Shown one piece after another: positions 6,367-64,000 of a DNA stretch of 64,000 nucleotides. The stretch's first letter is position 1. Each line of letters opens with the position of its first letter. The notes beneath the pieces are model-generated. The model ran no database searches, was not told the origin of the DNA, and saw only the letters and a list, made by a program, of their open reading frames with translations. The stretch is from Mesodorylaimus sp. YZB2_4 (Eukaryota; Nematoda; Enoplea; Dorylaimida; Dorylaimidae), in contig JASANH010000850.1 in the NCBI GenBank assembly GCA_030248295.1, positions 1,054,001 to 1,118,000 on the forward strand, written 5' to 3'. The translations under genes were made by a program, and so were the position numbers.

Positions 6367-8289
6367 ATGGACGAGTCGGCGCCCTCCGCTCAGGCAACCG
6401 AGCGATCGAAGCCAGTCGACGTTGTCCAAACGTCGATGGCCCAAGGAGTTGGCGATACACCATCGCTGACCGAAGACCAAATGGGAAAGGCGGGAGCGCC
6501 ACGAGGAGTCGAAGAACAACAGGTTAGTAGGGGTGGACTCAGTGAGTGCCAGCTGTGGACTGGACTGATTGCAGGGAGACGATGAAGTCGACGACGAGTG
6601 CGACCCCTTGGATTTGGAGACATACAAACCCGTCTCCGGAGAGATCCTTTCCAAATTATTGGCTCAAGCGGAATTCTACTTTTCCGATTCAAATGTCTTG
6701 AAAGACAAGTTTTTGATGAAGAACATTCAGAAGAATAAGGGCGGCTTTGTCAGGTAAAGGTGCCGATGCTGCGAGGCTGGGGTTCCTACGCGCTTCCATT
6801 TTCAGCGTGAAACTGCTGTCTTCGTTTCGACGTATGCAAGCCATTTCGAAAGACTGGCGCGATCTGGCTTACTCTCTGCGACGATCGGAGAAACTGGAAG
6901 TGAATGCGGCTGGAAACAAGGTGCGACGGAAAGATCCATTGCCTCAGTGGGACGACAGTGTGTTCGATCGAACTGTGATCGCTATCAACCTGCAGTAAGC
7001 ATGTCGGGGTCTGGAGGGACTACTGTATTTTGGATGTGTGCCCTTGGGAGGGATGTCCTCTTTGGAGCACGGTCCTGTGCTGTACAGGAATCCCGTAGAT
7101 TGGTCTAGAACTTCGATAAAAAGTATTCTTGAAACTGCGGATACGAGCAAGACTGTGATGGCTTCTTTCCAGAATCCCCGAGGTGTCTGTGAACGCGGTG
7201 AAACAGATATTCGGCAAGTGCGGTTCGGTGACGCTTGTTCGTGTTCTGCAACCCGGAAAGGTGCTGCCTGACGACTTGAAGCAGTTTTCTCCCAAGCACC
7301 CGGAATTGAGCACGAGGGTGTGTGCGGTTGTGGAGTTCTCCAAACAAGAGGAGGCTCAGAAAGCGCTCAACGACCTCGGCGGGAAGGGTGATTGGAGAGG
7401 AATGCAGGTGAGGGGGGAGGGCACGTGAAGGCTGTCTAGGGCTGGGGGTTGGCTAATGGATAAATTCAGCGGTAGATTAGACTTGCGCCAGAAGTAGGAT
7501 GGTGACAGATCACTCGCCATGGGCACTCACTTTCAGGTACTGTCGCTACGGGGGCCAGGATTGCCACCAGACCAAGCAGTCGAACCTGGAATGGATGTGC
7601 TGTTGGAAAAGGGCGATGGTGTCAAAATTGTCAGACCCGGGCAAAAAGGGAAAGAAAACATCGCTACGAAGACTGTGGTGACCATCGACTCCTCGCCTTC
7701 CTCGTCGCCATCAAGTAGACGTAAGAAAACAATATCACGTAGCGGTGCTGGCGGGGGCAGTGCTGGTATTCCGATCCCTGACAAGCACAAACTGGATGCG
7801 TTTGGTGGTCGTGGTTCGCCAGGTCGGTCGCCGGGTGCTGGTCGACGTAGTCCCAAACCGTCCTCATATGTTGGTTCGGGTGATGAAACTGGTGCAGATC
7901 GTTTCGAAGCTCGGACCACTCCGAAGCCCATACCGGGCAGGATGCAGCAACATCGGGGTACCCCGATCGGGAGTCCTGATGTAAGGCCTGTGCTTCTGTC
8001 TTACTCCTCAAAGTCTAATCCCCTGGTTGATTAGGTGAGAGCCCGAGGCGCTGAAGAATCGCCGCTAAGCTGCAGTCCAGGCAGTCTGGGCACAAGCCCT
8101 TGGATCAGGCGCAGGTAAGCCGACCAGCGCTTACCTTTGAGTGGCTCATACAATGCAACTTTGTTCAGGGCTCTGATGGAACAAGCCGATCCGTCATCGT
8201 CGCCTGGTCGCAATTTGATCACAGTCATTCGCCAACCTCGTGGACCGAATGGAAGCAAAGGATTTTCGGGTTTACGACCGTCTAAATAA
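6367..8289 (+). CDS. LARP6: La-related protein 6
   Basis: RNA-binding protein; in vertebrates LARP6 binds a 5' stem-loop of collagen mRNAs and links them to translation and the cytoskeleton. Order of domains: an acidic, disordered start; a La motif (L-L-A-Q-A-E-F-Y-F-S-D-S-N, K-D-K-F-L-M-K-N-I, then F-R-R-M-Q-A-I-S-K-D) from about residue 70; an RRM-like domain (P-E-V-S-V-N-A-V-K-Q-I-F-G-K-C-G and R-V-C-A-V-V-E-F); a Ser/Gly/Pro/Arg-rich linker; and at the extreme C-terminus R-Q-P-R-G-P-N-G-S-K-G-F, the SUZ-C (LSA) motif that separates LARP6 from other La proteins. The stop is TAA at 8287-8289. Short introns of about 55-150 nt. BOLA3 follows 220 bases downstream on the same strand. Family assignment is firm; the exact splicing of the linker is less certain. 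Confidence 0.9.
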
Positions 8290-8511: not shown

Positions 8512-8904
8512 ATGTTTTTACGAGTTTGGGCTGGTGTTCCGAGGCGTTGGTTCAGTAGCGAAGTGGCCGAAGGAGAACGACGATTGGTCAATTTACTGAA
8601 AACGCATTTTCCGAAAGCGTCCGAAGTTTTAGTAGAGGACACATCAGGTAAGGCGAGAGGAAGCCAACCATGGATCGTTGCCAATCTTTTCTTTTGCAGG
8701 TGGTTGCGGCGCTTTCTATCGAATTCTAATCGTTTCGCCGGAATTCAAGGGCAAGTCCTTGTTAGAGCAGCATAAAATGGTCAATCAAGTAAGAGGTTCT
8801 AGCTGCCTTGCAAACTCGTGACTAAAACACATCCATTTTAGGCGTTGGGAGAGGAAGTCAAGAAGTTACATGGCGTAAATATTCAAACGGTCGCGCAGAA
8901 GTGA
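8512..8904 (+). CDS. BOLA3: BolA-like protein 3, mitochondrial
   Basis: Small three-exon gene (about 8512-8646, 8700-8788, 8842-8904). BOLA3 acts with GLRX5 and NFU1 in the mitochondrial matrix to deliver [4Fe-4S] clusters to lipoate synthase and respiratory complex proteins. The start [16 protein letters not shown] looks like an amphipathic arginine-rich mitochondrial presequence. The BolA fold follows: L-L-K-T-H-F-P-K-A, then S-G-G-C-G-A-F-Y with the cluster-binding Cys, then [16 protein letters not shown] with the conserved His. Length of about 95 residues is normal for the family. It lies close behind LARP6 on the same strand, so joint transcription is possible but unproven. Confidence 0.92.
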
Positions 8905-10490: not shown

Positions 10491-13400
10491 ATGTTCAGTG
10501 GTGCAGTGGAAAGATCTGTGAAGTTGTTGCTGCAGTCGTGTCATCACAGGTGATCGTTTACCGGCGTGTCTAGTCAGCTTTTCTGGTTTCATATATTCGT
10601 CAGGTCGAATCTGACTAAAGAAGTTATCCCTGGCAATAGTACGCTGTGAAACGAGATTTTGTTCCAGAATTTACAACCAACGGTGCCTTTCCGCTGGGAA
10701 AGAGTTTGTAAGTTCTCGACTGCGTTTTGTGCTTTTTCAGTTTGACAATTAGCCTACAATTATTATAGGCTTGCCATTTCAAAGTGTTGGCTTCTTTGAT
10801 TGAAGCTTTATATTTGCCGCTCTCAAAGTAGATTTGATCAGGGCCAACTGAATGGGTGAGTCAACGATTTTGCGTACCTACTCGAACCTTTGGTCCTAAG
10901 ATCGGTGTGAGGTCGCTTGGCGAGGTTAAAGTCTGTTAATGGACGAGAGCAAGGGCATACTGTCTGGAAAGATGGTTGGTGACAGCCTACGCCAACACGT
11001 TTTTCGTTGAAATACAGGTGTGCTCCTTCTGTGTAGGGTTCGTATTTGCAGTTTCTGGTTCCGGTTTGACTAACCGACAGCAATACCACAATTCGATCTG
11101 CTTTCCGTAAAATCACTTGTAATCCTCGCTCTTTTTTAGATGCCGATGGTATTGAACGTCTGAAAAAACTTTATCCGTTCGTTGACCAAACGAAAACTCC
11201 GTTGCCGTCATGCTGGAGCGCTAAAGACAAGTTCCAGTACCTCGGCCTCACGCAGAATAATTTACGCGTCCATTATAAAGGTTAGTGCAGATCTTAAATA
11301 TTGATCTGTCCTAGTGAGGGTGTCCAGAGTCGTTTTTAGGGCAAGGTAAAACACACAAGGATGCGGCTGCGGTTCGATCAGATCACCCGATTCCGTCTTC
11401 ATGCGGGCTGTATTACTTCGAAGTCCGTATCGTCAGCAAAGGCAGAGATGGGTCCGTAACTGATGTCCTAAAATAAGTTCATTCTGAAAACTTGCTTATT
11501 CAGGTTCATGGGTATTGGCTTATCACAACAAAGCGTCAGCCTGAATCGATTGCCAGGTATTCAGCTGTTTATCCGTATATTATAATAATTCATAACTTAC
11601 AATGCTTTGGGTTTTTAAGGCTGGGACAGATCTTCGTATGGCTATCACGGTGATGACGGGAATTCGTTTTGTTCTTCTGGATCCGGTTTACCATATGGGC
11701 CAACTTTCACGACCGATGACGTGATTGGATGCGGAGTCAATTTTATTGATAACACTTGTTTCTATACGAAGAATGGCCATAATATAGGTAAGATTTTGCA
11801 TGGGTTGTCCTCTAATGAATTGAAAGCAATCTGATCTCTGTTTTTAGGTGTCGCTTTCACGGATTTACCGGTATGCAGGCAGGCTATTTATTATAAACTA
11901 AATCAATTCTGTAATTATGATTTCTAGGGCGGCCTTTATCCGACGGTCGGTTTGCAAACCCCCGGCGAAATAGTTGATGCTAATTTTGGTCTTATGCCAT
12001 TCGTCTATGACATCACAGAGGATCTAAAGGTAATGGCGTCATGCTTGCGCCAGGCTCACTAAGTACTTGTCTTGCCTTTGCAGGAAGCACAATTGCGCGT
12101 TCGCACTTCTATCGAACGATTTGCATTATCTCCTGCGAGATCCGAGTGGTTCAATAAGTAAAGGACCCTTGTTCTTCTGAGCGAGCGTGAACATGGCTTC
12201 TTTCAGATTGATTTCCGGTTACCTTGTGCATCACGGTTTCTGCGCTACAGCGGAAGCATTCGGTTTTGATGGAGGACATGCGGCGGTAGAAGATGTGGTT
12301 TCGATGAAACATCGTCAAAGTAAGCAAATTAGGTTCAAGTTTTGTCTTTGTTTAGCAGTTGATCAAAGATATATGAGATATATCTTAGATATATGCAAGT
12401 TGATTAAGTCTGGCCGTATAAGCGAGGCAATTCGTCAAGTGCAGCTCCTGTACCCGACCTTGTTTGAACAGAAGCCGGATTTGCTATTTTTGCTGAAATG
12501 TCGCCAGTTCGTTGAAATGCGAGCTGGAAATGACAACGAGGTAAGGATTTAAAATGCGGCATTGACCCAATTATTTTTAATGGTTTTATGTGTTTCTTAG
12601 ATACGTCGGCCTTCGCCAAGAAGTTCGCATTCGGCTTCGCCCGCTTGTTCGCCACCTCAATATAAGCTTTCGTCTCATATGCCTTCGAAGATGCGCCCGT
12701 CGCCGCTTCATTCTCCCAAAGGTCATTCAGCCATCCGAGCTAGCAAATTTTTCATCATTATTATCTGTTTCAGATTCTCCAAGAAGCTCACCGCGACGAA
12801 TAAAATCGCCTAGGCCTCGTAGTTCGATAACGCCGTCCTCCGAAATGGATCATACTCATGAGAGAGTATCTTCTCGAAACGGCTGTGAAACTCATAAAAA
12901 GTAAAGTGCTGACTATGAAATTTTATTGGTCAGCTACAGTGTAACTTGTTTTCAGTTTCATGGAATCGGGAGACGCTTCCGTAGGAAACGGAAAGAATGC
13001 TGACAATGGCAATTTTGAGAATGGAGTACACGCCAGTGATACAAGCGCTCCACCAGCACCGTCCGCTGTCGCAGACGATGTCATAACAGGTGGCTCGTAT
13101 CACGATGGCCCCTCGTCGTCTTCAGCGAGGAATGGCGCCGGGCATGTTGAGGGTGTGGACAAAGTTGATGAAGGTAAGTGCTGCGAAGGGGGGGCAATGA
13201 CTTAAAACAGGGGACTCACGATCAGATTCACCAACATGAAATATTTTAACCGAACTAGTTTCGTTGTAGAAATGGATGGTGACTTCTCAATGGCCATTGA
13301 TGGTATACCGCCGAGCCAGACAAATCGGGCGGCGGGTGAAGGAGTTGGCAACCGTGCGGAGCAAGTTGAGCAACAAGTTGTATTTGGTCGCGAGTTGAAT

Positions 13401-13809: not shown

Positions 13810-17477
<3,668 letters not shown>

Positions 17478-22922: not shown

Positions 22923-25900
22923 TCACTCTGGGGTTGAATAACCGCTTCCGTTGTGGGCGTCGGTGGATTGGGCTGCCGAGGGTGGGTGACTGTCGTAGAG
23001 CGAGGTGGCTTGCGAGCTGGGCTTGAACGCCATGGCAGATGCCGCCGATGATGAAGGTTGAAGTTTCCGAGCCACCAATTCAGGCAGCACGCGTATGGAA
23101 ATTTGCAGCTGCCGCATATATGCTTCGACATTAGCGCAACGTTGATCCATTCCAGCGATCTTTTCTTCCATTTCGTTCTGCCACGTTCTCATGTCGGCTA
23201 TGATTTCGTACATCATGAGCGTAGTCTGAAATGAACCGGGGTGGCAACGAGGGATGAGTTTTTATGCGGTCGTAAAAAGAGGGGAGAGCCCTTTGGTTTA
23301 TATGCGGTGGGTGTGCCCTCGTGGAAGAGTAGACACTAACAACTCACCTTCGCCATATCAGCTACTGATACGGAGTTCTCCTTCAGCTTCCTCTCCCCAC
23401 GCTTCACTTTTCGCATCCTAGATACAAATGAGCTGTTACCCCTATCGAAAAATTGTGGCTAGATGTGGTTACTGGTATATGGCTATAAGGAATTTCCTTT
23501 GATGGTATCGAATCTTGGAGGCATCCACCTTGTCGACAAGTTTCCTATGCTTGTAAATGAGCCATGTTTCCCGAAGCACATTGGCAGCTGCATTTTTCAG
23601 CTAAAATCGTACCAATGATGGATGCCATTATGCGCTGCATGCCGATGTGGAAAAGCGTACTTTCTTAGTGAGCATAGAATCCATCATGAAATTATGAACA
23701 TGCTTTTCTGCACGCGATAATTCCAGCTTCTTAGCTACCACGGCGACGACCAGCGACGATGTGCCAGCACCCTGAAAACGAAAAAGGTCCCCTAAGAGTC
23801 GACGATAAATAAGTATGCGGGAAGCCGAGCTTGAGATGTCGATCTTGAGGCTTGGCATAATAGGCTGGGCACTTACCATGATGCCACAGATGACCGAGAC
23901 GGCCCTACCGCAGTACGTATTAGGTACGATATCGCCATAGCCAATCGTTAGGGATGTTATCGCGACGAGCCAAAGCGAGTTCAGATAGTTCTGGAACGTA
24001 ATAGATTGTACGGTATACTGTATTTGTAGAGAGACAACGTACTTGATGCTTGATGGCTTCGTAATGCATAATAGTCTTGTTCGAGTCGATGGCAGCCCCG
24101 GGGGCTCCGCTGTATGAGAATCCGTGATGCCTATGCCAAGAAAATCCTCACTCGACTTCGTGATGAGGTCTAGCGTCGACTTACCGCTCGCACAAGAGCA
24201 TAATCCATGCAGCTGTCATCCAAAACGAAGCTGTGAATGTCAATAGTACTGTGCCTGGGGACATGGTCATCAATGTCTTCAGAACGAATCTTGCAGTGAA
24301 GTTGACTCGATTCATGGCACCGATGCTCCTGCTAGGCGCGTCCGTAAACAATTTACTGTGCAATAGCATGAGCCGACAAAGGAGATAGAGCCGAAGGAAC
24401 ATTGGAATGGATAAGAGGACGTCGACTGGAACTCGTGCCGATGTGACCGTCTTGCCGTCGTGATGCACCGTGTGCCAAGTGAAATGATAGTCACCGGGAA
24501 CGGGGCAAATTGAGCACGCTAGTAACTCCAAAGAAATTTGTACAGCGCGCTTAGGATTGATCAGAATTCGCCAGTCGTAGCAACCAAGATCGACCATGCT
24601 CAACTGAAAAGCAAGGAGCCCTCTGCATCATGCTCGAGTAGTTTTACTTTGTGCCCGTCAAAATCCCAATTTCAAAATGTTGTGTCCTCCTCTCTGCGTA
24701 TCTTCTTTTCCGTCTGCTGCTCTTCACTGTTAGTTGTTGGATTGAGACGGCTCGTGGTCGATATAGATTTAGAGAACACATCCATAAAAAGGACTATTGA
24801 ATTTGAATTTTCGCACTAATCAGGTAAATGCATCGAATCACGATCCTCACGGGGTACGCTTATACATTTATGATTGATAAATAGCCTGCTGGTCAATCTA
24901 CAGTATCCCTCCACTCTGACTCAATAGGGTCCTCTCAAATGCAAACGATATGTGACGCGCAGCTCGTTTTATCCACCTGCCCAGAGTTAGAATAACTTAT
25001 TCATGGCGCATTCCAAGGGCCGAAACGAGGGGTCCCAGTTGGTGGGGCCCTACAGGGTGTGAGCACACGCTTGGATGGTCTCACGTAGTCATAGGCATGT
25101 TCGATTTGGATTTGCGCACTTGTCACGGATAGCTCCGTAAGCAAGCTTGGCAGGCGTAGGAGGAAGGTGGCCGACCTAAGTCAGTAGGGCAAGTCTTGCG
25201 ACTATACCTATGGCTGAAACATCAACCCGAGGGGTTGACGTCTCCCAGCGGGAGAGTATAGATTACTCTCTCCAAATCGCCAGGGCCTACCAGGCGCGAG
25301 AATTACAGCTCCAATGAATGTCATGCACTTACTTGTAGCTCCAGTGCGTGGTAGGCGAGTATCAGCATCAATAGAACCAAAGTTGATAACACAATCAACG
25401 ACTTCAAGCCGTACGAATATGGAGAACTCTGAAAAGCATGATATCGCTGCCCTAAGCTTCTCTGGAAGATTCTTATTTAACTCCAGTCAGGCGCATTTCC
25501 GAGTGCGCGACTGAGAAAATCTCTCTTACCTTGGTATAGACTCCCGCAGCGGTCAGTTCATTTTCTATGATCATCAGTACGATCCCCAGAATAGCAAATA
25601 TGCACGAATAATCGCAGGCTTTGCGTCTTTGATCAAACAGCTGATGCCGTTGTCCAACCCTGCACACCGGTAGCTTAAACGCATCGACTGTGGCTTCGGC
25701 CGTTGCTGCGGCATCGGCTCCCATACTACCGCCTGCACCTCCGTTCGAACCGGACATAGAGACGGGTGCTTTAGGATAGTCGCCATCCACCGAAGTCAAG
25801 GTCGTTGAAATGTACTTGGCATCATCCAATGACCCGCGGAGGGGATTAGCGCTGGCATTGTTGTGATTCCTGGTCGCTGTTATCAAAGCGGCCGTGCTCG

Positions 25901-29700: not shown

Positions 29701-30089
29701 TGAATGAGGGGAAGCCAAGGACTGCTTCCAAGTAATTATATAAAACTTGTTCGATGTGAATTCTCGCCAGCATATGCAGATGCAGTATAGAACATGTAAA
29801 AGAAGCAAGGTGCCGCTTTGTCAGTTAGAGGCATTGATTGAATCTTTCTGAGACCGCAGTGTAAAAGAATATCTGAAATTGAAAGGCGTTACACGACTAT
29901 TTCTCACGATCAGCCTTCATAGGATAAGCTGCTGAAAAAGGCGGATTGGAAAATGAGGCAGTTTTTCGATAGGCACTTGCCATATCGAAGAATCAAAATG
30001 GCAATCAAACGCCATGGCAAAACTAAGACGCTTTATATCCACAGTTATAAAATGCTGTATCCTTTTATTCGAGATCCTTCTTGGAAGAG

Positions 30090-30515
30090 AGAGGAATACA
30101 CACATTTTTTGGCCCGTTTTGCGTTTAGCCAGCCAGCAATCAAATTTTCTAAGCAAGCCGGTGCGGGGGCCGCCAGCACACACAGCAGCGTTCCTCTGCG
30201 TGTCACGGAGCACCTCCAAACGAGGGCCTCCTCGACTCGACACCGACTTCCTTGGACAATAGCGGGTGAGCTTTGAACCCTGTCGGTGTTCGACAGCTGA
30301 GACTGTCTACTCGTTTGGCTTCCGTCTCTCCGCTCGGAGCACCTCTACGGTACCGGGTGAGTCACCCATTGCCTAGCGTGCAAGGTGAGCGAGAATTTAT
30401 TTTTTAAACCTACCTCCTTCACCGGGAATTGGACCCAGGACGAGACCAGCCGCTAGCTACTAAGCAGTGCGGGTAGACGAACGCCAACCCATAGGAAATC
30501 AACCTACCCTGAAAA
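30090..30515 (-). mobile_element. Second copy of the tRNA-derived SINE (reversed)
   Basis: On the reverse strand this matches the element at 16067-16495 along its length: a tRNA-like head with the B-box variant GGGTCCAATTCCCGGTGAAG, the shared GGAGACGGAAGCC-type body segment (written here as GAGACGGAAGCCAAACGAGT), AGGGTTCAAAGCTCAC, and a shared end CTGGCTGGCTA close to an A/T-rich tail. The B box is damaged compared with the 16-kb copy, so this copy is probably older. Borders are approximate and I could not see a target-site duplication. Confidence 0.75.
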
Positions 30516-33310: not shown

Positions 33311-34364
33311 AGTCTTAGGATCGGTTATAGAGTAGCAAAGGCCATTATGAGCTTCACTCTTTCCAGTATGCTGATGGATGAGTGGACGGGGTGTTTCGGC
33401 AATAACTTATGGATGGGTGAAAAGTCATGCACGAAATTCTTTGAGCGCTTTGGACAACCTAAGCATCTTTGTGCCCAGTTCTGGAGCTGGGTGCTGGCAA
33501 GCTTTTTCCATGCCTAAGTTCTGTTAGCTATTAGGACGTATTGGATTTTCCTTGGAAACTTGGTGGCCTGAGTGTCCACGATAACAGACACCCGTGGATC
33601 GAAGAGTAACGAAGGCCAATTCAACAGCTAGCAGGGGGACGACAATGTGGTATGGCCGGGCAGCCGATTATGCGATTGTTATCTGTTCACGGGTGACTAA
33701 AAAACGCAAAGGTTTCAAGTTCTGTTGCCTCATGCATTCATGAGTCCTATTTGGGCCAGCTATAACAAGCCTTACTGCGTTCCTGTCACTGATGGAGATG
33801 GTGGCGACGAAGTGAGGCCAAAGAGGCTTTTCATTCGCTAACTTTGAAGCCCGCTAGGCGGGAGGCAGGAACTGATCGTGAGCAGGAGGTAGGCGGCGCG
33901 GGCAGGACAGAAAGAGCTCTTTCTAGGTGGCACACATGCGGCGGATGTCGAAGCCGCGAACGGGCGGTTCTGGAGCAAAGGTTCAAGGCCATTGTCAACA
34001 ACGAGCATCGTCGTCGTCAGTAGTCAGCTTTCCTTGGACAAAAAGAGATCCAATTACAAAACTGATGGTTGAGGCGAAGTAGGCGTGATTGCTTTCGTCG
34101 AGCTCTGCTAACCAGCTTCATCTTTGCTCGCTCGAAGACCTACGCCCTAAGTTGCCCCTTGTGTGATAGCAGTCGGGACCGTGAGAGCTACTAGACTCAA
34201 CGGCGTGCAATAAATCTTGGCGCAAATCCTCTCACTTTCATTCAACTTGTGAAAATGGAGTGAGTTAGCTGCAGCTTCTTTTCTTCTTTCCGTTACAGAT
34301 TATCACGCATGGTGGGAACATAAATTTGATTAAAACCTCTTTGCTCGATATCGTGTCTTCAGAA

Positions 34365-35759
34365 ATGTCCTGTTGGGGTCCTTCCGACGGCGGTGCGGAC
34401 GGCCCGATGTCCAACCAGACTTTTGCTTTTTACCAAGCTTTGGAACGGTTTAACGCCGTTTACAAGGAAGCCCATCCTTATCTGAGCATATTTATTTGCG
34501 TCTGTGGTGTCTTTCTGAACGCAGCAAATATCATTGTTCTGACAAGACCGGCCATGGCTTCGAATCCTATCAATGCTCTGCTGACAGTCATAGCCCTATC
34601 GGATGTTGCTGTCATGATTTCTTACGTCCCATTCGCCGTCTGGAGCAGCCGAGATTGGAGCTATTGCGCTATTCATTGGCAGACGATGGCTTGGGCCTAC
34701 TTTGTACTGTTCAATTCCTGTCTTACGGTCATTTGTCACGCTGTTAGCATCTGGCTGACAGTGGCCATGGCTCTGATCAGAGCTATCACCGTTCGTCGCA
34801 AAGGCTTCTCAACATTGTGGAAGAACAAGAACTCCTACGGACTCTCCTTATTCACTTTCCTCTGTATTCTAGTCTTGTACATACCAGGCCTGGTCTCGTA
34901 CAAAGTTACAGCGCGTCTCTTCGATGTCGACTTCTGCCGAAACTCGAATTTCGATCGAAGCAGACTGTACGACAACCTGGGCAATGAAAGCTATGTCTAC
35001 ATCACAACAGTATCCGAACTGGGATACGGCAATCGGTGTTTGTTACTCAAGTCAGCATTCTGGATCAATGGAGTCATTTTCAAGATGATCCCGTGTTTGC
35101 TACTGACCGTCTTCATCGGAGTCCTCTTGCACATTCTGACAGAAGTGAAACAAAGGAAGACAAGATTACGCCAAGGCTCGGCTTCTGATGCGGCCAATGG
35201 TGCCGGTGGAAGGCGCACATCTGATCAAGCTAATAAGACGGATCGGACGACGCTGATGTTGGTTGTATTGCTAGCTGTGTTCCTGGTAGCAGAACTGCCT
35301 CAAGGCTTGCTTTTGATTAGCACGGGTCTGGCAAGTTCCGAGTTTCGCACTCGAGTTTTTATGAACTTGGGTACGCTAACCGATTTATTATCACTCTTGA
35401 ATTCTTGCGTCAATTTCGTTATTTATTGCGCCATGAGTCAAAAATTTCGCGAGGTCTTTTGTCAAACCATTTTGCCATCCTCGCTTCATTATCGCTATTT
35501 CTGCGACGGAGACGCGTCGACAATGTTCGCGACCAACGGAAATTCTGTAGCTTTACGCAGTCGCGTCTCCTTCAACCCATTTCGTCGTAGCAGTGCAGCT
35601 AATAAGGAGGAAAATAGCATCGCAGCGTACTCGACTCTCCAAAACGGCGCAAGAGGATCCCTCAGCGTCCCTGGAGTCAGGCGTAAGAACAGGACCGACT
35701 CGGATGCTTCCACGACCTTGCTGCGGACACCGACGATCAAGAAGCGTCCAAGCACTTGA
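34365..35759 (+). CDS. DMSR/myosuppressin-type neuropeptide GPCR, intronless
   Basis: A single uninterrupted frame of 464 codons with seven hydrophobic helices. Protostome DMSR-type receptors respond to myosuppressin or other FMRFamide-like peptides and signal at the plasma membrane, usually via Gi/o. Features: an N-glycosylation site S-N-Q-T in the N-terminus; TM1 N-A-A-N-I-I-V-L-T-R-P; TM2 with N-P-I-N-A-L-L; TM3 ending in A-M-A-L-I-R-A-I-T-V instead of the usual D-R-Y; TM6 preceded by D-R-T-T-L-M-L-V-V and containing A-E-L-P-Q-G-L-L; TM7 L-L-N-S-C-V-N-F-V-I-Y-C instead of N-P-x-x-Y. The T-E/A-E-x-P-Q-G and N-S-x-x-N-F-x-x-Y-C patterns are typical of this family. A Ser/Thr-rich tail follows. 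The ATG at 34365 lies two bases after an acceptor-like CTTCAG. The ligand is not known. Confidence 0.88.
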   Translation: MSCWGPSDGGADGPMSNQTFAFYQALERFNAVYKEAHPYLSIFICVCGVFLNAANIIVLTRPAMASNPINALLTVIALSDVAVMISYVPFAVWSSRDWSYCAIHWQTMAWAYFVLFNSCLTVICHAVSIWLTVAMALIRAITVRRKGFSTLWKNKNSYGLSLFTFLCILVLYIPGLVSYKVTARLFDVDFCRNSNFDRSRLYDNLGNESYVYITTVSELGYGNRCLLLKSAFWINGVIFKMIPCLLLTVFIGVLLHILTEVKQRKTRLRQGSASDAANGAGGRRTSDQANKTDRTTLMLVVLLAVFLVAELPQGLLLISTGLASSEFRTRVFMNLGTLTDLLSLLNSCVNFVIYCAMSQKFREVFCQTILPSSLHYRYFCDGDASTMFATNGNSVALRSRVSFNPFRRSSAANKEENSIAAYSTLQNGARGSLSVPGVRRKNRTDSDASTTLLRTPTIKKRPST

Positions 35760-55864: not shown

Positions 55865-58800
55865 ATGATTTCGATTATCAGCCGAGTGCTGATTGTGTTC
55901 CTTATCGGGACATTGATATCGTTTGGGAGGACTCAGGAGCAAAAGAATTAGTAAGTGTGCCTGTGTTAGGGCGACTGGACATGGCCTCTCTTTGTGGGGC
56001 AAATCCCCGTAGGGGCTGGGTGGTCTACCGTGTGCTTCGCTCAGTTCTCAAAGCCATTTCACCAGTTTGTGTATCCTGTTGGTTTTTTAGTACGGGAAGC
56101 TACCTGATCGTGGCACCGAGGACGATTCGTCCTGGCTTACCCTATTCCGTCAGTGTAAACATACTCGAAGTACGCGAGCCGATTGTGGTCAACATTCGTA
56201 TTCTCGATGACCAGAACAACACTGTGGCACAGTCCTGGGCTCGAGATTTGAAAGCAGGTAGCTATTCCGTGGTGGAACTTGAAGCTGTCAGAGTCAAATT
56301 TACATTTCCCTCTCCTTCTAGGGCAACCGCAAACGGCCGTATTTGAAGCAGTAAGTGGGTAACAGTGCGTGGCCGACGGCTTACCTCCGTATGTGCCTTT
56401 TTTAGCTACCGAACACGATGACATCTGCGAACACGTATCGTCTGTATGCCAAGGGTCAAGATGCATCGACCAGCCGTGTCCTTTTTGAGCAAACGCAAGC
56501 GCTGACTCTGAATGAGAAGGCTCGCTCGACATTTATCCAGACGGACAAAGCGATCTATAAACCGGGAGCGACAAGTAATACAAAATTGCCTCTTTTCATG
56601 CCTGGCGCGTGTATGCAAAAATGGAGCACTTTAGCGGCTCAGTTGGCCCTGTACCCTATCATTTTCTATCGTGTACACTCGGATAGCCACTGTATGAATG
56701 CCCTTGCTTCCTGTGCGCACGCGGCCTCGACCCGTTTGGTCTGGAGAGTACCATTTAGTGACGCACATGTTATTGCGGTTGACGGAAATTTAGGGCTCTT
56801 TGATACTCGTCCATTATGGACACCATTATGACCGCGTGTGGCGCGGTTCATTCAATGGCTTCCGGCTTCCCATTGTCTCTGCAGGGGCCGTCCAAAAAAG
56901 TCCATGCTGTATTTGGGATTGGTGGGGTGTGGGGTGTGAAATGCATGCACTGTACTGCACATGACATTTTCGAAGCAACCCCTAGGACCGAGGGTTCAAC
57001 CATCCCCCTAGGATTCATGAACACAAGGGCGAGCACACGAGCGCCTAATTGAACAAGCATTCTATTGTCGTTTGTCATTTCAGTTCACTTTCGGGTCGTT
57101 GTCGTGACTCCCGACTTGAAACCGTACAGAGGCAAGGCTGACATCAAAGTCACGGTATGTACCCGATTCCGCGCGTGTACTCGTTGAAATTGCTTTAGTC
57201 ACATGCGTTCCAAAGCTAGTTTTCCACGTCTCTATTCTTTTGCAGGACCCAAACCAGAATGTCATTAAGCAATATTTGGCACAAGATATTGAGGGCGGTA
57301 AGTGCACCGGAAAAAACGTGACTGATTATGTCGGGGTTGTTGCTACAGGTTCTAGGCTGTGAGATGGGTGTTGTGTCATGTATGGTCAAACACGTGCACT
57401 CGAGGGACAGGAGTGATAAGTGAAGTTATTGCAGGCGTGCTGGGCAAAGACGACAAGTTGTCCCTGCAGCTGTCAGAAGAACCACCACTGGGCGAGTGGA
57501 AAATCACTGTGGAAGTGGATGGACAAAAGACAGTCAAGTCATTCACAGTGGACAAATACGTTCTGCCCAAGTTCGAGGTCACTGTCAAGCCTCCCCCTTT
57601 CATTACGACCACTGACGATGCAACCGTTTTCGTGTCGGCCAAGTAAGCAGCTGAATTTTTGGTTGAGGTCGTGGTGATTGAACATGTTTCTTGACCAGGT
57701 ACACGTACGGAAAGGGCGTTGTTGGAACAGCCACGGTATGGAAAACCTACTCTTTCCAGTTTCCTCCCCTTTCCAGTCTTTGCATCAGTTCGGTTTTAGG
57801 TGTTGGCCGAGTTCCCGTGGCGTTTCTGGGGTCCACCAGAAGAAAAGATGACACCATTGGCAAAAACTGTCGAAGTACGCCAATGTTCAATTGTCGTGCT
57901 CACTCGTGCAGCCTCTCTTGTTTTAGTTAAACAACATGGGCGAAGCTACTGTTCGATTTTTGAATTCCGAATTGAAGCAACGAAAGCTGGTAAATGAATA
58001 TGGCTACAATCAAATACGATTTACGGCCACAGTTACTGAAAGCTTGACTGGTATGTTGTCTGACCAAAAGGCTGTTTATTTTTCGAGCACGAACGTGAGC
58101 TATGTTTAGGCACGCAACGAAATGGCACTGGTGACGTCATCGCACATAAATATGGGCAGAAAGTGCGAATCGAAAAGCCGACTGACACGTTCAAACCAGG
58201 GTTGGATTATCGCGTCACGGTATGCAGCCACTGTGTGAACATGACTAGCGACTTAGCATGTGCAGAAGCTAAAAATAGATTTTGATAATCTGGCTGTTCA
58301 GTGCCTTGGAAACACGAATTTTGTGTTTTTAGATATCCGTTGTCACTCAAGATGACAAGCCCCTTTCATCGAACGCTGGTCGAGATTTGTATTTAACCGT
58401 CTACTACTATTACCCATACGTTCCACCACCACCAGAGCCGTTGCCTGCTGGAGGTACCAACGACACTGTGGCCCTCAACATCCCTCAACCGTTCATTCCT
58501 CAACGCCAAGAAGAGACGCAGGTGAAACAGAAGTTGACACTGGGATCGGACGGGACCTTCGTGATCACATTGAACCCGCCATCGAACGCTAGCAGCCTGA
58601 GGATCGAGGTAAGTGTGCCTAGTCCCTGTGTGCTTCAAGGGATTCACACCTTTGTTTAGGCTCGATATGGAGGAGAGGCGGCCGAGGTGTACGCAGTGGA
58701 GTATGTGGATGCCAGCAAGTCCCCCACTCACAGCTTCTTGCAGTTGTTGGCAAAGTCGCCGTCGGTCAAAGCGGGTGACGAGGCAGTGTTTGCTTTGCGA

Positions 58801-61800
58801 GCTACCGAAGGTATCGACGTCGTAACTGTGCAAGTAAGCGGACATCGTTTATGTCCTTCTCGGATGCCTAAGGCCTTCGTTTCAGGTGATGACCAAAGGC
58901 TATATCGTACTTAGTCAGCAAGTGAAAATGTCTGGTCAAACGGGTGAAGTGAAGTTCGCCACGACCACTGAGATGGCTCCGAAGTCCCGCATTATCGCCT
59001 ACGGGGTACGACCTGATAACAAGGAGATCCTGGTCGATGCGATGGATTTCGAAGTTCAAGGATTCTTTAAAAATAATGTGAGGCTGTTTCAAATCGAACT
59101 TGCCCATCACACCTGCCACACCATCACATCACTTTCAGGTGTCAATAGAGGTCAATCCAAACCGAGCTGAGCCGAACCAAACTGTTACGTTTACAGTGAA
59201 GGCTGCTCCGTCGTCTTACATTGGCTTGTTGGCAGTTGACCAGAGTGTACTGCTGCTGAAGTCTGGAAATGACATAACTGATGAGACAGTAAGTCCTGAC
59301 CTGTCAGACCCCACCGGTATGTAGCCAATACTGTCTAGGTGCGAAGTGACATCGCTCAATACGACACGACCGGATTCAGCGGATGGCGTCCTTGGGGACC
59401 TATTGAACGTCGACGCAAAAGGTCTCTTTGTCGATACTGTTGGTGGAATATCGGAGGAAAAGACGCTGCGACCATTTTTGATGTAAGCTCTTGTCAAACT
59501 GTGAAAAACTGTCTTACATGGGACCAATGTGTTTTAGAATTCTGGAGTGGTCGTGTTGACTGATGCATATTTGCATCGAGAGCCGATCCCGCCGAGTAAG
59601 TAGCTTATTCTGGTCACTTGCCTAATATTGCGGTGTGCCATTTCCCCGTCCAAACATTTTTTCATGTGGATAGAAAACGCTACCGCTTATACTCTGGGAT
59701 ATCTGCAGAAGGGTTGGGCTTACTACTTGTGAGCGAGCATGCAGTAGTGTCTTTTAAAAGACATTCTGCCAATATAATTCTTCTAACTCGGTGTGGGGTG
59801 TGTTTGCTCGCCTTAGTATATGAACTGGACTATGATGATGGAGTGGCGTTCCTTGCCAATGACGCGATTATGGTCAATGCTGTCCATCACAATCAGGAAT
59901 TAACAGCTGCCGCCAAAACTGAACCGGCATCACAACCGACTGTGACAGTGACAGTCAGGAAACGCTTTCCCGAAACTTGGATTTGGGGCGATGTCAGCTC
60001 AGAGTAATGAGGCTGGTAACGCTTGGTGCCTTTTGCATTCCGCTGTGCTTGCTGTCTTGCTTAGGACTAGACTAATAGGAGCTGTGTGGTCCGAAAATGC
60101 GTGGATCGGAGTTCTATTTGCTACTATAGATCTGGCTCTGGGGACGGATATGATTTAGACGAGGCCAGTCTTTGAGGGGTGTCGGTCATAACTTTTACGT
60201 TTTTTGAGTCCACCCTTCGGAGGACGTGTCTTTTATTTTGCTAAAGATAGTGTCGATCGATTCGAAGCAATCAATTCTTAGACTAACTATGCGACTGGGG
60301 TTTACCAAATCTTAAAATTTGAATGGTTGGACGACAAGTGATCTGGTTGTGGCTACTACTAGACTATTGTGTCACGTGTCAATTGAATCGTCCAAATGAA
60401 ATAATGCGGAGAAACTACTAATTATAGCTTACGGGGTTGTCGGCCGTTCAGAAACATGGATGTTCCTCGATTCGTCGTCGTAGATTAAGACACTTATCTA
60501 TCTGACCGCTTGGGTTTACTTACAACATTTTTAAGGCAATTGTGGCGATAGTGGGACTAGCGTGGTAATTTTCGTTGCCGTTTAGTGTGTGGCAGTCACA
60601 AGCTTACGATTAGATTGGTAGAGTCCTTTTTTGTCTTCGTTCAGCATGTATTTATTGCTATTAATCGTCAGACTCGTCTGCCCTCACCGCCTTGGTATCC
60701 TAGTCTCCTCATTGGCAGGCCTCCTTCAGGTCATCTTATTCGAGTTGCGGCCAGAGGACGTGGTCGACTAATGAGTGGCAGAATGCTACCGAGATTCATG
60801 AGTGGCGAAATTCCGTACAGGCCTTCTGCTCATACGGCTTACGCCCCTTTCCGGATTCGAATGCTTTTTCCTGAAATCTGGATCTTTGCTGATTCAGTGT
60901 CAGGGTAAGGTTGCAGGTAGAGCATAGAGTAGAAATCACGTTGTGACACTGAGGCAACGAGATTCATTTTCTGTTTATCATTTTGCACGGTAGCGTTTTC
61001 TACTCTTTTATGATTTCCTGGTTTGGAACAAGCAGAAGCTGCAGCATGGACAGTCTGACTAATATTCCACATTCATTCAGGACCAATCTTGTTCGCTCGT
61101 GGTGGTGCAGGCCTGCCTGGAGTAGTCGCATTTGCAGCAGCGAGAAGACCGGACGCGGAATCGGTGTCTTCCGTCATTTCTGGAAGACCGGTGGAACCAC
61201 CAAAAGTGCGAACGAAATTCCCAGAAACGTGGTTGTGGGTCGACGCCGTATCTTCGTGAGTCTCTGGTCATTTTATTTTGCCATCGGCTCGTTGCTTTGA
61301 TTGCTCGGACACGGGTCATCAGAGTGATGCACTGCCTGGAGTACTAACCATTTTCACTATCCGTCTCCGTCGCATGACAGGGGCGGTGTGGTCGTAGCTT
61401 GCATGGTTTTATTAGTTTCGTTTGCGACTGGCTTGTGTCTTGTATTTGTGTTGTTTTACTGGTCCCACACCACCACATTTTCCCGTCCAAGTTTCGAGCT
61501 TAATGGCCTGAAACACCAATAGGCCGAGAATGGGGTCGTATTCCAGTGGGTTCAGATGAGTTCGACTCCTATTAGCATACAACTATGTTGGCTCTGTGTG
61601 TTCGAGTGCTCGCATCCGCATATGTTCGGATGAACCGTGTAGTTTGGGGTTCAATGATCTTCCTCATGTCAATGCACAGTTCATTCGCAGGTCTGCGCGG
61701 CCGATGGGTTTAACCTTGTACAGGTCACCCGGAAGCTGTCTTATACCTTCTACTGTTTATTGGCACACCGCGAGTGAGGATGGGCTTTATTGATTTGTCG

Positions 61801-64000
61801 CTTTTCATAGCTTATTTTTTGACTATCGCTCGAAAATTTGCTCCTGCTCCTCCGTCAGAAATTTCAATTGGATCTGGTCTTTCTACTCCAGCAGTAAAAG
61901 TTAGGAGTAATTTTCCTGAAACTTGGATATGGGCGGATCTGAGTAACGAGTAAGTTCGTGCATCGAGTGTTATTTAGCCAGCGATCGGCATGATCAGGTT
62001 GTGTTGCTATTGATCTGCATGTTGCATTGACTCCAGTCATCAGCTGTCATTGGCGTCGGCGTTTGTGTTTGGGTCGCGCCTGGAACAAGGAAAGCAGCAG
62101 GGCGGGTTACTGGCACACCGCAATGCCATACTGCTTGGCCGTCATGGTCTGACAAGTCGGTTTTATAACCCTTTGCAGTGGTCATGGAATCATCCGGGGA
62201 TCGGTTGTTCGCGATGCCTGCAACTGCAGTAGATATGGAGGCAGCTGGTGCGGGTGCAGCGGGCGGGCTGATACAAGTTAGGACTAAGTTCCCGGAGACT
62301 TGGATCTGGGCTGATCTTCGTTCGAAGTAAGTATGGAGGTCTCAAAGCGCATGATCGTTTATCACTTTAGAGGCTCTGACCGCCTGCACCGGTTCCACTA
62401 TTTCTTTTCGACGTTGCGCTCTAAGTATCTTTATCGCACTGGTCCTGTAACCTGTTTGCACGATTTCGATGAGTGATTGACATTGTGCATGGGCGTCTCG
62501 ATTGCATGAGTTTGCCTGTTCGTTTGCACTTACTGCAGGACGGATTGCGCGGTCGGAGGTCTTTGCTTCTAGCACTGCAGCCGAAGGGTCTCCGCTCTGA
62601 AACAACTTCTCACTTCCGTTCCTCTTCTTTCTTTTTAGGAATGCAGGCACACTTTTTTTTGTTGTTGTGGTGGTGGCATCTATGTGATGTATATTTTGCA
62701 CAGGATACGAAATGGCGGAATATAAAGTAATTTCCGTCCGAACTATCGGCGCCAGTGATCGTGTTAGTGTTCGTAAAAACTTCCCTGAAACGTGGATCTG
62801 GGTGGACACGGTGTTGGAGCATGTACTGTAGTGTAGTTGCATGTCCCTGCGGGTGCATGTGCCTTGTTTGTTCGCTGGCTATGTTGGTGCCGTGGGTCAA
62901 ACTATGGGAGGCAAGTCGAGCTGACTGTGTTTCAGATCTGATGGAACAGCTACATATCAGGCAACTGTGCCCGACACGATTACCTCGTGGATTACGAGCG
63001 CTTTTGCCATCAGCGATGTGGACGGGCTCGGTGTCGCTCCTGAACCAACCAAGGTAGGAGACTGGTAATGGTTGCATGTAATGGTGGTCGGGATCTATTC
63101 TTCTCTAGTTGCAAGTATTCCGACCATTTTTCATTCGACTGGACTTGCCTTATTCGGTCAAGCGCGGTGAAAAGTTGGCCTTGCAAGTGCTGGCCTTCAA
63201 TTATATGGAGAACGATCAGAAGGTGAGTAAAGCTTTCGAATAGGGGCATGGTCTGCAAGTTTTGACTTTTTCGTGCAGGTGGTCATCACGTTGGAGCACA
63301 ACGCTAACTCTGGTTTCGACTTCATTGAGAAGCCTGGTGTCACGAAGGAAAAGTCTACTAAGCAACTGAACGTCCGATACGTTACTGTAAGCTTTTACGG
63401 GTACAAGGAATCCATATATCTTCACCAGGCTGTCTTATCGATAGGTACCTGGTAACGGCGGTTCGGCAGCTACGTTCTTTCCAATCGTTCCAACAATGGT
63501 TGGCGAAGTGAAATTTTTGATCAAGGCTATAGGAGGAAGCGCTACGGACGCTATCGAAATGCCGTTGTTGGTTGAGGTATAACTGACGAAGGTGGTCCGT
63601 TACAACTGATGACTAGACTATCTTATTCAGGCGGAGGGTTTCCCAATGTACCGGAACAACCCCATGGTTATGGACCTGACGCAGACCAACTCGCAGAAAA
63701 GGTCCATCCAACTGGACATACCTGCTGATGCCGTGCCTGGATCGTCGCGCGCCGAAGTGTCAGTGACTGGTAGGGACTGGTGCTGTCCTCGCGGGCCTTG
63801 GTCTGACCGTCTCTTGGTTTAGGCGACATTATGGGGCCAGTGCTGAACAACATCGAGAAGTTGGTCCAGATGCCTTACGGCTGTGGAGAACAGAACATGT
63901 TGAACTTTGTGCCCAACATTGTGGTCATGAAGTACTTGCAAGTGACTCAGCGTTTAACACCGACCATAGAAAGCAAGGCAAAAAAGTACATGGAAGCTGG
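55865..64000 (+). CDS. Secreted thioester protein (TEP/CD109/alpha-2-macroglobulin family), 3' end beyond window
   Basis: These proteins trap proteases or tag microbes: a protease cuts the bait, the fold changes, and a thioester bonds to the target. About 25 exons are visible. The start [16 protein letters not shown] is a signal peptide. Next come macroglobulin domains ([48 protein letters not shown]), a dibasic site R-R-R-K-R-S (59408-59425) that could be cut by furin, six alternative bait exons (59817-62818), then constant exons 62936-63053, 63109-63222, 63279-63386, 63445-63576, 63631-63769 and 63823 onward. The thioester motif G-C-G-E-Q is at 63879-63893. The catalytic His-region, receptor-binding or GPI-anchor end lies outside. 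The bait plus CD109-like sequence points to the TEP/CD109 branch rather than C3. The R-R-R-K-R site before the bait recalls C3 chain processing. Confidence 0.93.
59627..59640 (+). promoter_or_regulatory. Candidate RNA docking site for bait-exon choice
   Basis: ATTGCGGTGTGCCA lies 32 bases into the intron that follows the last constant exon before the array (donor at 59596). It is perfectly complementary over 14 bases to 62111-62124, and partly to sites before bait exons 4, 6 and 2. One shared site pairing with one of several downstream sites is the design known from Dscam exon 6 in arthropods. The pairing is seen; the role is inferred. Confidence 0.6.
59817..60003 (+). other. Alternative bait exon 1
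   Basis: 187 nt, starts with two bases of a split codon and ends with two bases of the next, like all six. The bait is acidic and His/Ala-rich ([18 protein letters not shown]) and ends F-P-E-T-W-I-W-G-D. Donor GTAATG. Confidence 0.85.
60685..60690 (+). promoter_or_regulatory. Weak selector candidate before bait exon 2
   Basis: CACCGC, complementary to GCGGTG of the docking site (59630-59635), 40 bases before bait exon 2. Six pairs alone can arise by chance; its matching position is the main support. Confidence 0.25.
60730..60904 (+). other. Alternative bait exon 2
   Basis: 175 nt. The bait is strongly basic and Met/Gly-rich ([14 protein letters not shown]) and ends F-P-E-I-W-I-F-A-D, the most diverged of the six end motifs. 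An upstream acceptor at 60585 is also in phase and would make a longer form. Confidence 0.75.
61081..61255 (+). other. Alternative bait exon 3
   Basis: 175 nt, same phases. The bait is Gly/Ala-rich with basic spots ([20 protein letters not shown]) and ends [10 protein letters not shown]. Donor GTGAGT. Confidence 0.85.
61761..61771 (+). promoter_or_regulatory. Candidate selector before bait exon 4
   Basis: TGGCACACCGC is exactly complementary to 59630-59640 (11 bases, extendable by one G-U and one A-U pair) and lies 40 bases before bait exon 4. Confidence 0.55.
61811..61949 (+). other. Alternative bait exon 4
   Basis: 139 nt, same phases. The bait is Ser/Pro/Ala-rich ([11 protein letters not shown]) and ends [10 protein letters not shown]. 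Donor GTAAGT. Confidence 0.85.
62111..62124 (+). promoter_or_regulatory. Candidate selector before bait exon 5
   Basis: TGGCACACCGCAAT is the exact reverse complement of the docking site over all 14 bases, with one more G-U pair possible. It lies 55 bases before bait exon 5 and is the strongest pairing in the set. Confidence 0.6.
62179..62326 (+). other. Alternative bait exon 5
   Basis: 148 nt, same phases. The bait is Ala/Gly/Met-rich ([15 protein letters not shown]) and ends [10 protein letters not shown]. Donor GTAAGT. Confidence 0.85.
62646..62653 (+). promoter_or_regulatory. Candidate selector before bait exon 6
   Basis: GGCACACT pairs with docking bases 59632-59639 over eight positions, the last a G-U pair, 51 bases before bait exon 6. 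Confidence 0.35.
62704..62818 (+). other. Alternative bait exon 6, likely GC donor
   Basis: 115 nt, the shortest. The bait ([18 protein letters not shown]) ends [10 protein letters not shown]. The phase shared by the other five requires the donor GCATGT at 62819, a GC rather than GT site; a GT six bases further on (62822-62823 region) would break the phase. Confidence 0.75.

Follow-up and report, generated by a model that had tools for sequence, protein, structure and literature searches.

The window analysed here, a 64,000-nucleotide stretch (C3:1054001-1118000, forward strand) of an assembly of 145.1 Mb in 1067 contigs, carries towards its right-hand end a thioester-protein (TEP) gene. The gene starts at 55865 and runs beyond the window end, to about 66138 in one reading of the adjoining sequence, in which the last exon is uncertain. 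It was modelled with 33 constant exons and a median constitutive intron of 55 nt, and an array of six bait exons is inserted between two of the constant exons (Table 1). Pieces of three further genes recognized in the window by domain search are listed in the same table.

Table 1. Features of the window and of its thioester-protein gene, with positions counted from the first nucleotide of the window.
Feature	Position	Strand	Basis or remark
RRM gene piece	7159-7425		domain search
LisH/CTLH gene piece	12181-12549		domain search
SK potassium channel gene piece	24184-24627		domain search
First coding exon	55865..55950	+	open frame joined to 56091 via GT donor; signal-peptide-like hydrophobic N terminus (by eye)
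16 constant exons (MG2, MG3, MG4, A2M_BRD parts)	56091..59595	+	GT-AG junctions, uninterrupted reading, Pfam
RRRKR, presumed furin-like motif, shortly upstream of bait	59408..59422	+	translation
Last constant exon before array	59538-59595	+	splice-junction model
Docking site A (TATTGCGGTGTGCCA)	59626..59640	+	intron after constant exon; pairs upstream of exons 4 and 5; 14/15 nt conserved in C39
Docking site B (TAGAAAACGCTACCG)	59671..59685	+	complementary 15/15 to 60988-61002
Bait exon 1, 187 nt, acidic	59817..60003	+	open single-exon isoform
Bait exon 2, 175 nt, Arg-rich	60730..60904	+	open single-exon isoform
Selector, bait exon 3	60988..61002	+	pairs docking site B; score -27.8; equalled by 2/494 sense and 2/494 antisense windows
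Bait exon 3, 175 nt, Gly/Ala/Arg	61081..61255	+	open single-exon isoform
Selector, bait exon 4 (TGGCACACCGCGA)	61761..61773	+	pairs docking site A; score -29.2; 1/494 sense, 2/494 antisense
Bait exon 4, 139 nt, Pro/Ser	61811..61949	+	open single-exon isoform
Selector, bait exon 5 (TGGCACACCGCAATG)	62111..62125	+	pairs docking site A; score -31.6; 0/494 sense, 1/494 antisense
Bait exon 5, 148 nt, Ala/Met/Gly	62179..62326	+	open single-exon isoform
Weak candidate selector, bait exon 6 (GGCACACT)	62646..62653	+	score -17.4 with core; 55/495 windows as good
Bait exon 6, 115 nt, Val/Ile	62704..62818	+	open single-exon isoform; GC donor at 62819
First constant exon after array	62936-63053	+	splice-junction model
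Thioester motif GCGEQ	63879..63893	+	translation; within TED_complement

The preliminary description took this gene to encode a thioester protein, which is borne out by its Pfam domains and the GCGEQ motif. The part inside the window encodes MG2, MG3, MG4, A2M_BRD, A2M and TED, and the part past the window end encodes TED and A2M_recep. All the hallmarks of the A2M/thioester family (macroglobulin domains, bait domain, TED, receptor domain and CGEQ) were found, and by this domain content the predicted protein is an A2M-family thioester protein. Its TED contains VHHKAMQGG, a histidine of which may be equivalent to the catalytic His of C3, a residue of the complement/TEP type that is absent in A2M proper. 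The closest match of solved structure by sequence was human CD109 (8s3o, 9fx2; E 3.9e-131), in a structure library holding few invertebrate TEPs.

RRRKR, which we take to be a furin-like motif, stands directly upstream of a CxxCWWNIGG stretch and before the bait. RSKR occupies the matching position in a paralog on contig C39 and is followed by the same stretch, and two-chain processing of the TEP at these sites is possible. At its 3' end, read unspliced, the window gene encodes a hydrophobic tail, and a donor-like GCAG/GTATTC found there resembles CCAG/GTATGA of a gene on contig C707.

The six bait exons lie within 3.3 kb and are separated by introns of 176-726 nt. All run from phase 1 to phase 2 with lengths of 1 modulo 3, and FPE(T/I)W(I/L)(W/F) was found near the 3' end of 6/6, each exon ending at the matching position beyond the motif. 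The preliminary description had reported six successive exons with this ending and with the lengths and phases given here, all of which was confirmed by the motif and the junction coordinates; the differences in bait character that it listed (acidic, Arg-rich, Gly/Ala, Pro/Ser, Ala/Met and Val/Ile) agree with the translations as read by eye. It had also stated that the frame would shift with two baits or none, and this proved exact: each one-bait isoform is open, whereas the zero-bait junction and 15/15 exon pairs lead to stops. Two runs of four exons, a number of lengths that keeps the downstream frame, both hit stops as well. Given how often stops occur locally, six open frames (311 codons) would arise by chance with a probability of roughly 3e-6. 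A common phase is also expected from the duplication of one phase 1-2 exon, and alone is not evidence of design.

Among the bait exons the seven-codon shared motif has a pS of 0.87, which is saturated, against a pN of 0.096. Directly beside the motif pN rises to 0.44 in the five codons after it and 0.42 in the five before, and further upstream the bait sequences diverge freely. The motif at the bait end is under purifying selection and the six exons are paralogs of one another, exons 4 and 5 being close duplicates. The array has the make-up of a mutually exclusive cluster, that is, tandem homologous exons of the same phase whose frame is lost when none or several are joined.

Exon 6 is a doubtful member of the array and may be little used. 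The preliminary description had treated it as an equal sixth member, which holds for its frame, length and motif but not for its donor: GT donors are present in 5/6 window bait exons, and exon 6 has GC at the homologous position (GA/GCATGT). The GT at 62823 would not preserve the phase; the only in-phase, stop-free GT is at 62828, 9 nt on, and gives an exon of 124 nt, also 1 modulo 3. All six exons of this gene may be in use. It is a real, although the less likely, possibility that only part of them are used and that exon 6 especially is decaying, a reading compatible with the main explanation given below for exons 1-5. The GC donor, set against GT in 13/13 bait exons of the C39 paralog, and a weak selector candidate would fit such decay, yet frame, acceptor and FPETWIW are all intact and an in-phase GT lies close downstream. 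GC donors, moreover, can be functional.

The C39 paralog was found by an A2M_BRD search of the assembly and was read in the stretch C39:737001-752928, to which local positions below refer. At least 13 bait exons make up its array; with the chosen acceptors they measure 133-217 nt, and all 13 run from phase 1 to 2; twelve were found by the bait-motif pattern and the 13th has FFETW. Introns between them measure 83-771 nt. The contig ends 23 bases past the last bait exon, and the end of C707 (minus strand; C707:20001-26548) carries the C-terminal part of a TEP paralog with a Pro/Lys-rich tail, cut by the contig end. The two parts probably belong to one gene split by an assembly gap, and the C39 array may therefore be longer than 13 exons.

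A strict FPETW(I/L)W DNA pattern matched 16 times in 145 Mb, five times in the window array and 11 times in that of C39, the rest of the genome and the reverse strand giving no match. A broad bait pattern gave 139 matches; among the 100 matches listed, 19 fell in the two arrays and many others were one repeated word. This word, TTCTCAGAGAACTGGCTGTGG, occurs on about two dozen contigs among the broad-pattern matches listed and constitutes a repeat family. A third A2M-family gene, found on contig C54 (482001-492000) by a PF00207 search, has one FPEVW segment and no bait array in the frames examined, and tblastn of the window protein against it returned nothing at E up to 1. A viral contig collection was scanned for relatives and none were found.

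A plain repeat search revealed long-range inverted repeats between the first intron, which follows the last constant exon before the array, and the introns preceding later bait exons. Pairing was scored with our own stacking-only scorer (gapless, nearest-neighbour stacks, G-U allowed, +1.5 per mismatch), the whole first intron being set against the 120 nt upstream of each 3' splice site, and 494 windows of equal size from the 64 kb served as the null. The first intron holds docking elements complementary to selectors before exons 3, 4 and 5, the first of which pairs with docking site B and the other two with docking site A (Table 1). In this scoring exon 2 (224 of 494 windows as good), exon 6 (82) and the constant exon (101) were unremarkable. 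Of 60 dinucleotide shuffles of the whole introns, 0, 1 and 1 equalled the scores of exons 3, 4 and 5, as against 42 for exon 2, 11 for exon 6 and 21 for the constant exon. No selector was found upstream of exons 1 and 2 in the pairing scans, and the exon 6 candidate is not significant given the number of null windows that match its score.

The 15-mer shared by docking site B and the exon 3 selector has three copies in 145 Mb, two of which are these elements themselves, and the exon 5 14-mer has two copies, namely selector and docking site. The selectors of exons 4 and 5 are not independent because the two exons are close duplicates. The word TGGCAC was found upstream of 2/6 window bait exons (P 0.014). 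In a blind scan of the first intron the result was modest, the best three of 33 segments, around 59614-59651, matching 2/5 exons. The search for a downstream docking site in the intron 62819-62935, against the 120 nt downstream of bait exons 1-5, gave 0 hits in 16 segments. The left intron matched at most 1/5 of the downstream flanks of exons 1-5 per segment, and its match to the flank of exon 2 arises because the exon 3 selector lies within 120 nt downstream. ViennaRNA duplexfold on whole introns produced large-loop duplexes and was uninformative.

The pairing layout is stronger in the 13-exon C39 paralog than in the window gene. A docking core of 26 nt (C39:745871-745896), chosen after looking, was first spotted by eye and later recovered by a blind scan; null windows for C39 were taken from the same 64 kb window. 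When the whole 477-nt first intron was scanned, the same segment (local 8870-8897) was chosen by 9/13 exons, these being 3, 4, 5, 7, 8, 9, 11, 12 and 13. With whole-intron scoring only exons 4, 7, 8 and 9 came near the 1% level (5, 0, 5 and 5 of 495), the counts for exons 3, 5, 11, 12 and 13 being 23, 13, 23, 40 and 135 of 495. The 26-nt core scored better than all 495 null windows for 8/13 exons, with 2/495 for exon 13 and 25/495 for exon 6; no selector for the core was found at exons 1, 2 and 10. The ten C39 selectors lie 36-63 nt upstream of the 3' splice site. TGGCAC was present upstream of 9/13 C39 exons against 3% expected for each (P 2e-11, before correction for word choice).

The blind scan of C39 covered 76 segments of 26 nt and exons 2-13. 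Its best segment matched 9/12 exons at about the 1% null level, overlapping segments matched 8, 5 and 4, and 62/76 segments matched none. At the 1% level the core pairs with 9/13 upstream regions in C39, while the reversed core gave 0/13, its reverse complement 1/13 and the exons as target 0/13. Downstream flanks gave 2/13 (exons 8 and 12), in both of which the selector of the following exon falls inside the 120 nt.

Within the first intron the docking elements fall between nt 26 and nt 46, spanning positions 32-46 in one intron and 26-40 in the other. Comparison of the first introns of the paralogs yielded only one block with E below 1, ATTGC(G/A)GTGTGCCAT, which is identical at 14/15 positions (E 0.019). 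For an alignment anchored on TGGCA, ten C39 selectors were used and exons 1, 2 and 10 omitted. Mean identity over columns -5 to +9 was 0.63, falling to 0.45 without the five anchor columns, compared with 0.26 in the flanks. When each selector was scored against the core of its own gene and that of the paralog, its own was better for 11 selectors, equal for two and worse for none; among six upstream regions without a selector for the core, three favoured the own core and three the foreign one.

Taken with the frame test, these elements make it highly probable that the window carries a TEP/CD109-type gene with an array of six alternative baits, one per mRNA, chosen by docking-selector pairing. 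The view in the preliminary description that the gene works with exactly one bait gains support from both the frame rule and the predicted pairing. Docking-selector pairing in the pre-mRNA would bring one bait 3' splice site near the constant 5' splice site, and with a single selector paired at a time one bait would be joined and the rest skipped. Mis-joined messages would lose the frame and probably be destroyed. The chosen bait would in turn set which proteases cut the protein and fire the thioester. Exons without a selector, mostly at the 5' end in both arrays, might be taken when the docking site is free, which is speculation. The pairing model does not explain what blocks a chosen bait from joining the next one, although the frame rule would discard such errors.

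A simpler account would hold that the baits are alternative and filtered by frame, that splice-site strength, proteins and nonsense-mediated decay suffice to set the choice, and that the complementarity reflects chance or relics of duplication. Tandem duplication does copy intron ends along with exons, 3/6 window exons are without a significant selector, and most wrong messages would already be eliminated by the frame rule. Relics would nevertheless hardly leave selector columns beside the anchor more alike than their flanks, a docking core as the sole block with E below 1 between the first introns, one main docking region in the blind scan of C39 and 0/13 matches with the reversed core. Exon 3, furthermore, pairs through a different 15-mer that is perfectly complementary. 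This account is accordingly judged improbable.

TGGCAC is nearly constant, being present in 9/10 of the C39 selectors aligned with TGGCA as anchor, and might on that ground be bound by a splicing protein instead of serving as an arm of an RNA pairing. The docking intron, however, has the reverse complement of the word and not the word itself. Where selector positions 5-7 deviate from the Watson-Crick complement, a G-U pair remains possible in 8/8 cases, with T in place of C opposite G or G in place of A opposite U. Between the paralogs, docking and selector bases also co-vary at position 8, where the window gene has a docking G facing C in both strong selectors and C39 a docking A facing T in 6/10 selectors, the other 4/10 being unpaired. 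The pairing sequence of exon 3, in addition, is unrelated to TGGCAC, and a protein site is very unlikely to be the explanation. Steric hindrance, the classic mechanism of mutual exclusion in other genes, in which introns are too short for bait-bait splicing, was ruled out as next to impossible by the bait-bait introns of both arrays, which are longer than the window gene's median constitutive intron of 55 nt.

Returning to selection by pairing, it seems likely that TEPs own a system resembling that of Dscam exon 6. The conserved docking core would predate the split of the paralogs, selectors before most of the 19 bait exons would compete for it, and pairing would set exon choice and hence protease specificity; the bait arrays of snail, scallop and fly TEPs may rest on this code as well. 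In Dscam1 exon 6 the docking site likewise lies just past the constant exon and the selectors before the variable exons compete (PMC6071210; PMC11802352, in the passages on this cluster). A layout of one docking site and competing selectors was found here, with 9/13 exons in C39, and with 2/6 window exons at the 1% level for docking site A and exon 3 for docking site B. A selector before every variable exon, as in Dscam exon 6, was not found: it is missing at window exons 1 and 2 and at C39 exons 1, 2 and 10, and that of exon 6 is weak in both genes. The TEP arrays are therefore likened to the Dscam exon 6 system and not called a proven full member of it. Dscam1 also differs in being an Ig-domain receptor with 48 exons in the cluster, the pairing in TEPs being an inferred one.

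The relevant part of PMC6071210 names competing pairing for Dscam, 14-3-3zeta, Mhc and MRP1; Dscam exon 6 is the one cluster among these whose docking site does not lie downstream. If the proposal is true, the TEP arrays would be a further example of an upstream docking site. The same paper ascribes the block on joining adjacent variable Dscam exons to an unknown mechanism, likely a repressor (PMC6071210).

Bait arrays as such have been described before, as the preliminary description had pointed out for insect Tep2 and a scallop TEP and as the TEP passages of PMC7016707 and PMC5489563 agree. Known bait variation in these passages includes 12 mutually exclusive exons in BgTEP2 and six in CfTEP (PMC7016707), five Drosophila Tep2 isoforms and six shrimp A2M variants (PMC7016707; PMC5489563), and a possible bait-exon array is indicated for Daphnia TEP2 (PMC2685406, in part). 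BgTEP2 of Biomphalaria glabrata resembles the window gene in carrying, within the bait/highly variable region, a tandem series of mutually exclusive exons each with a conserved C-terminal part, with 12 transcript variants, whereas its array extends over 30 kb and the passages on it describe no docking/selector pairing (PMC7016707). CfTEP of Chlamys farreri equals the window gene in having six mutually exclusive bait exons, and the discussion of it in PMC7016707 gives no mechanism of exclusion. Drosophila Tep2/TepII has five alternative exons in the hypervariable/bait region (PMC5489563; PMC6071210), and PMC6071210 counts it among the mutually exclusive clusters, with 5 exons and no docking site given in that listing.

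The bait array itself is thus a further case of a known arrangement, and its combination with docking/selector elements is new as far as our literature search shows. Among the papers that this search listed, on RNA pairing and other topics, there was no docking/selector pairing in any TEP and no published answer on how TEP arrays choose one exon. Two paralogs with a common docking core in otherwise unalignable first introns make exon choice testable, and the docking/selector layout offers a sequence signature to seek in other TEP genes. If true, the proposal would link an immune repertoire with the kind of RNA-pairing logic seen in Dscam and allow one protein to respond to many proteases.

Different baits may answer to different proteases. 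In the alignment with human CD109 (E about 1e-131) the bait exon falls, as read by eye, on the CD109 segment cut by meprin beta, and FPETWIW follows the bait in both. CD109 has a single bait in chains 8s3o and 9fx2, in contrast to the array of six bait exons in the window gene, and is GPI anchored; in the window gene the hydrophobic tail of the unspliced reading would be a candidate GPI signal. The second entry, 9fx2, has ENLYFQG in the aligned bait stretch, which is presumably a TEV protease site. Cuts by meprin beta in CD109 are placed at M665/E666, E667/N668, N668/E669 and H676/D677 in the cited part of PMC7960916, and in the related A2ML1 a TEV site put into the bait brought about a response to TEV protease (PMC9156758, in part).

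Two selector-like elements in the C39 stretch, at local 14781 and 15076, are followed by no recognisable bait exon. The former pairs more strongly than any other element of the C39 set (-37.1) and precedes a 255-nt, nearly T-free stretch of 77% GC, where an assembly fault may conceal an exon. Elsewhere in the window, a 477-aa intronless open frame at 34326-35756 encodes an Srw-type GPCR (E 2.7e-40), the TEP gene of the same genome having more than 30 exons. The segments 16000-16540 and 29920-30340 have, by eye, similar translations on both strands (FDCW..., GSQTSRQS...) and are likely copies of a dispersed repeat.
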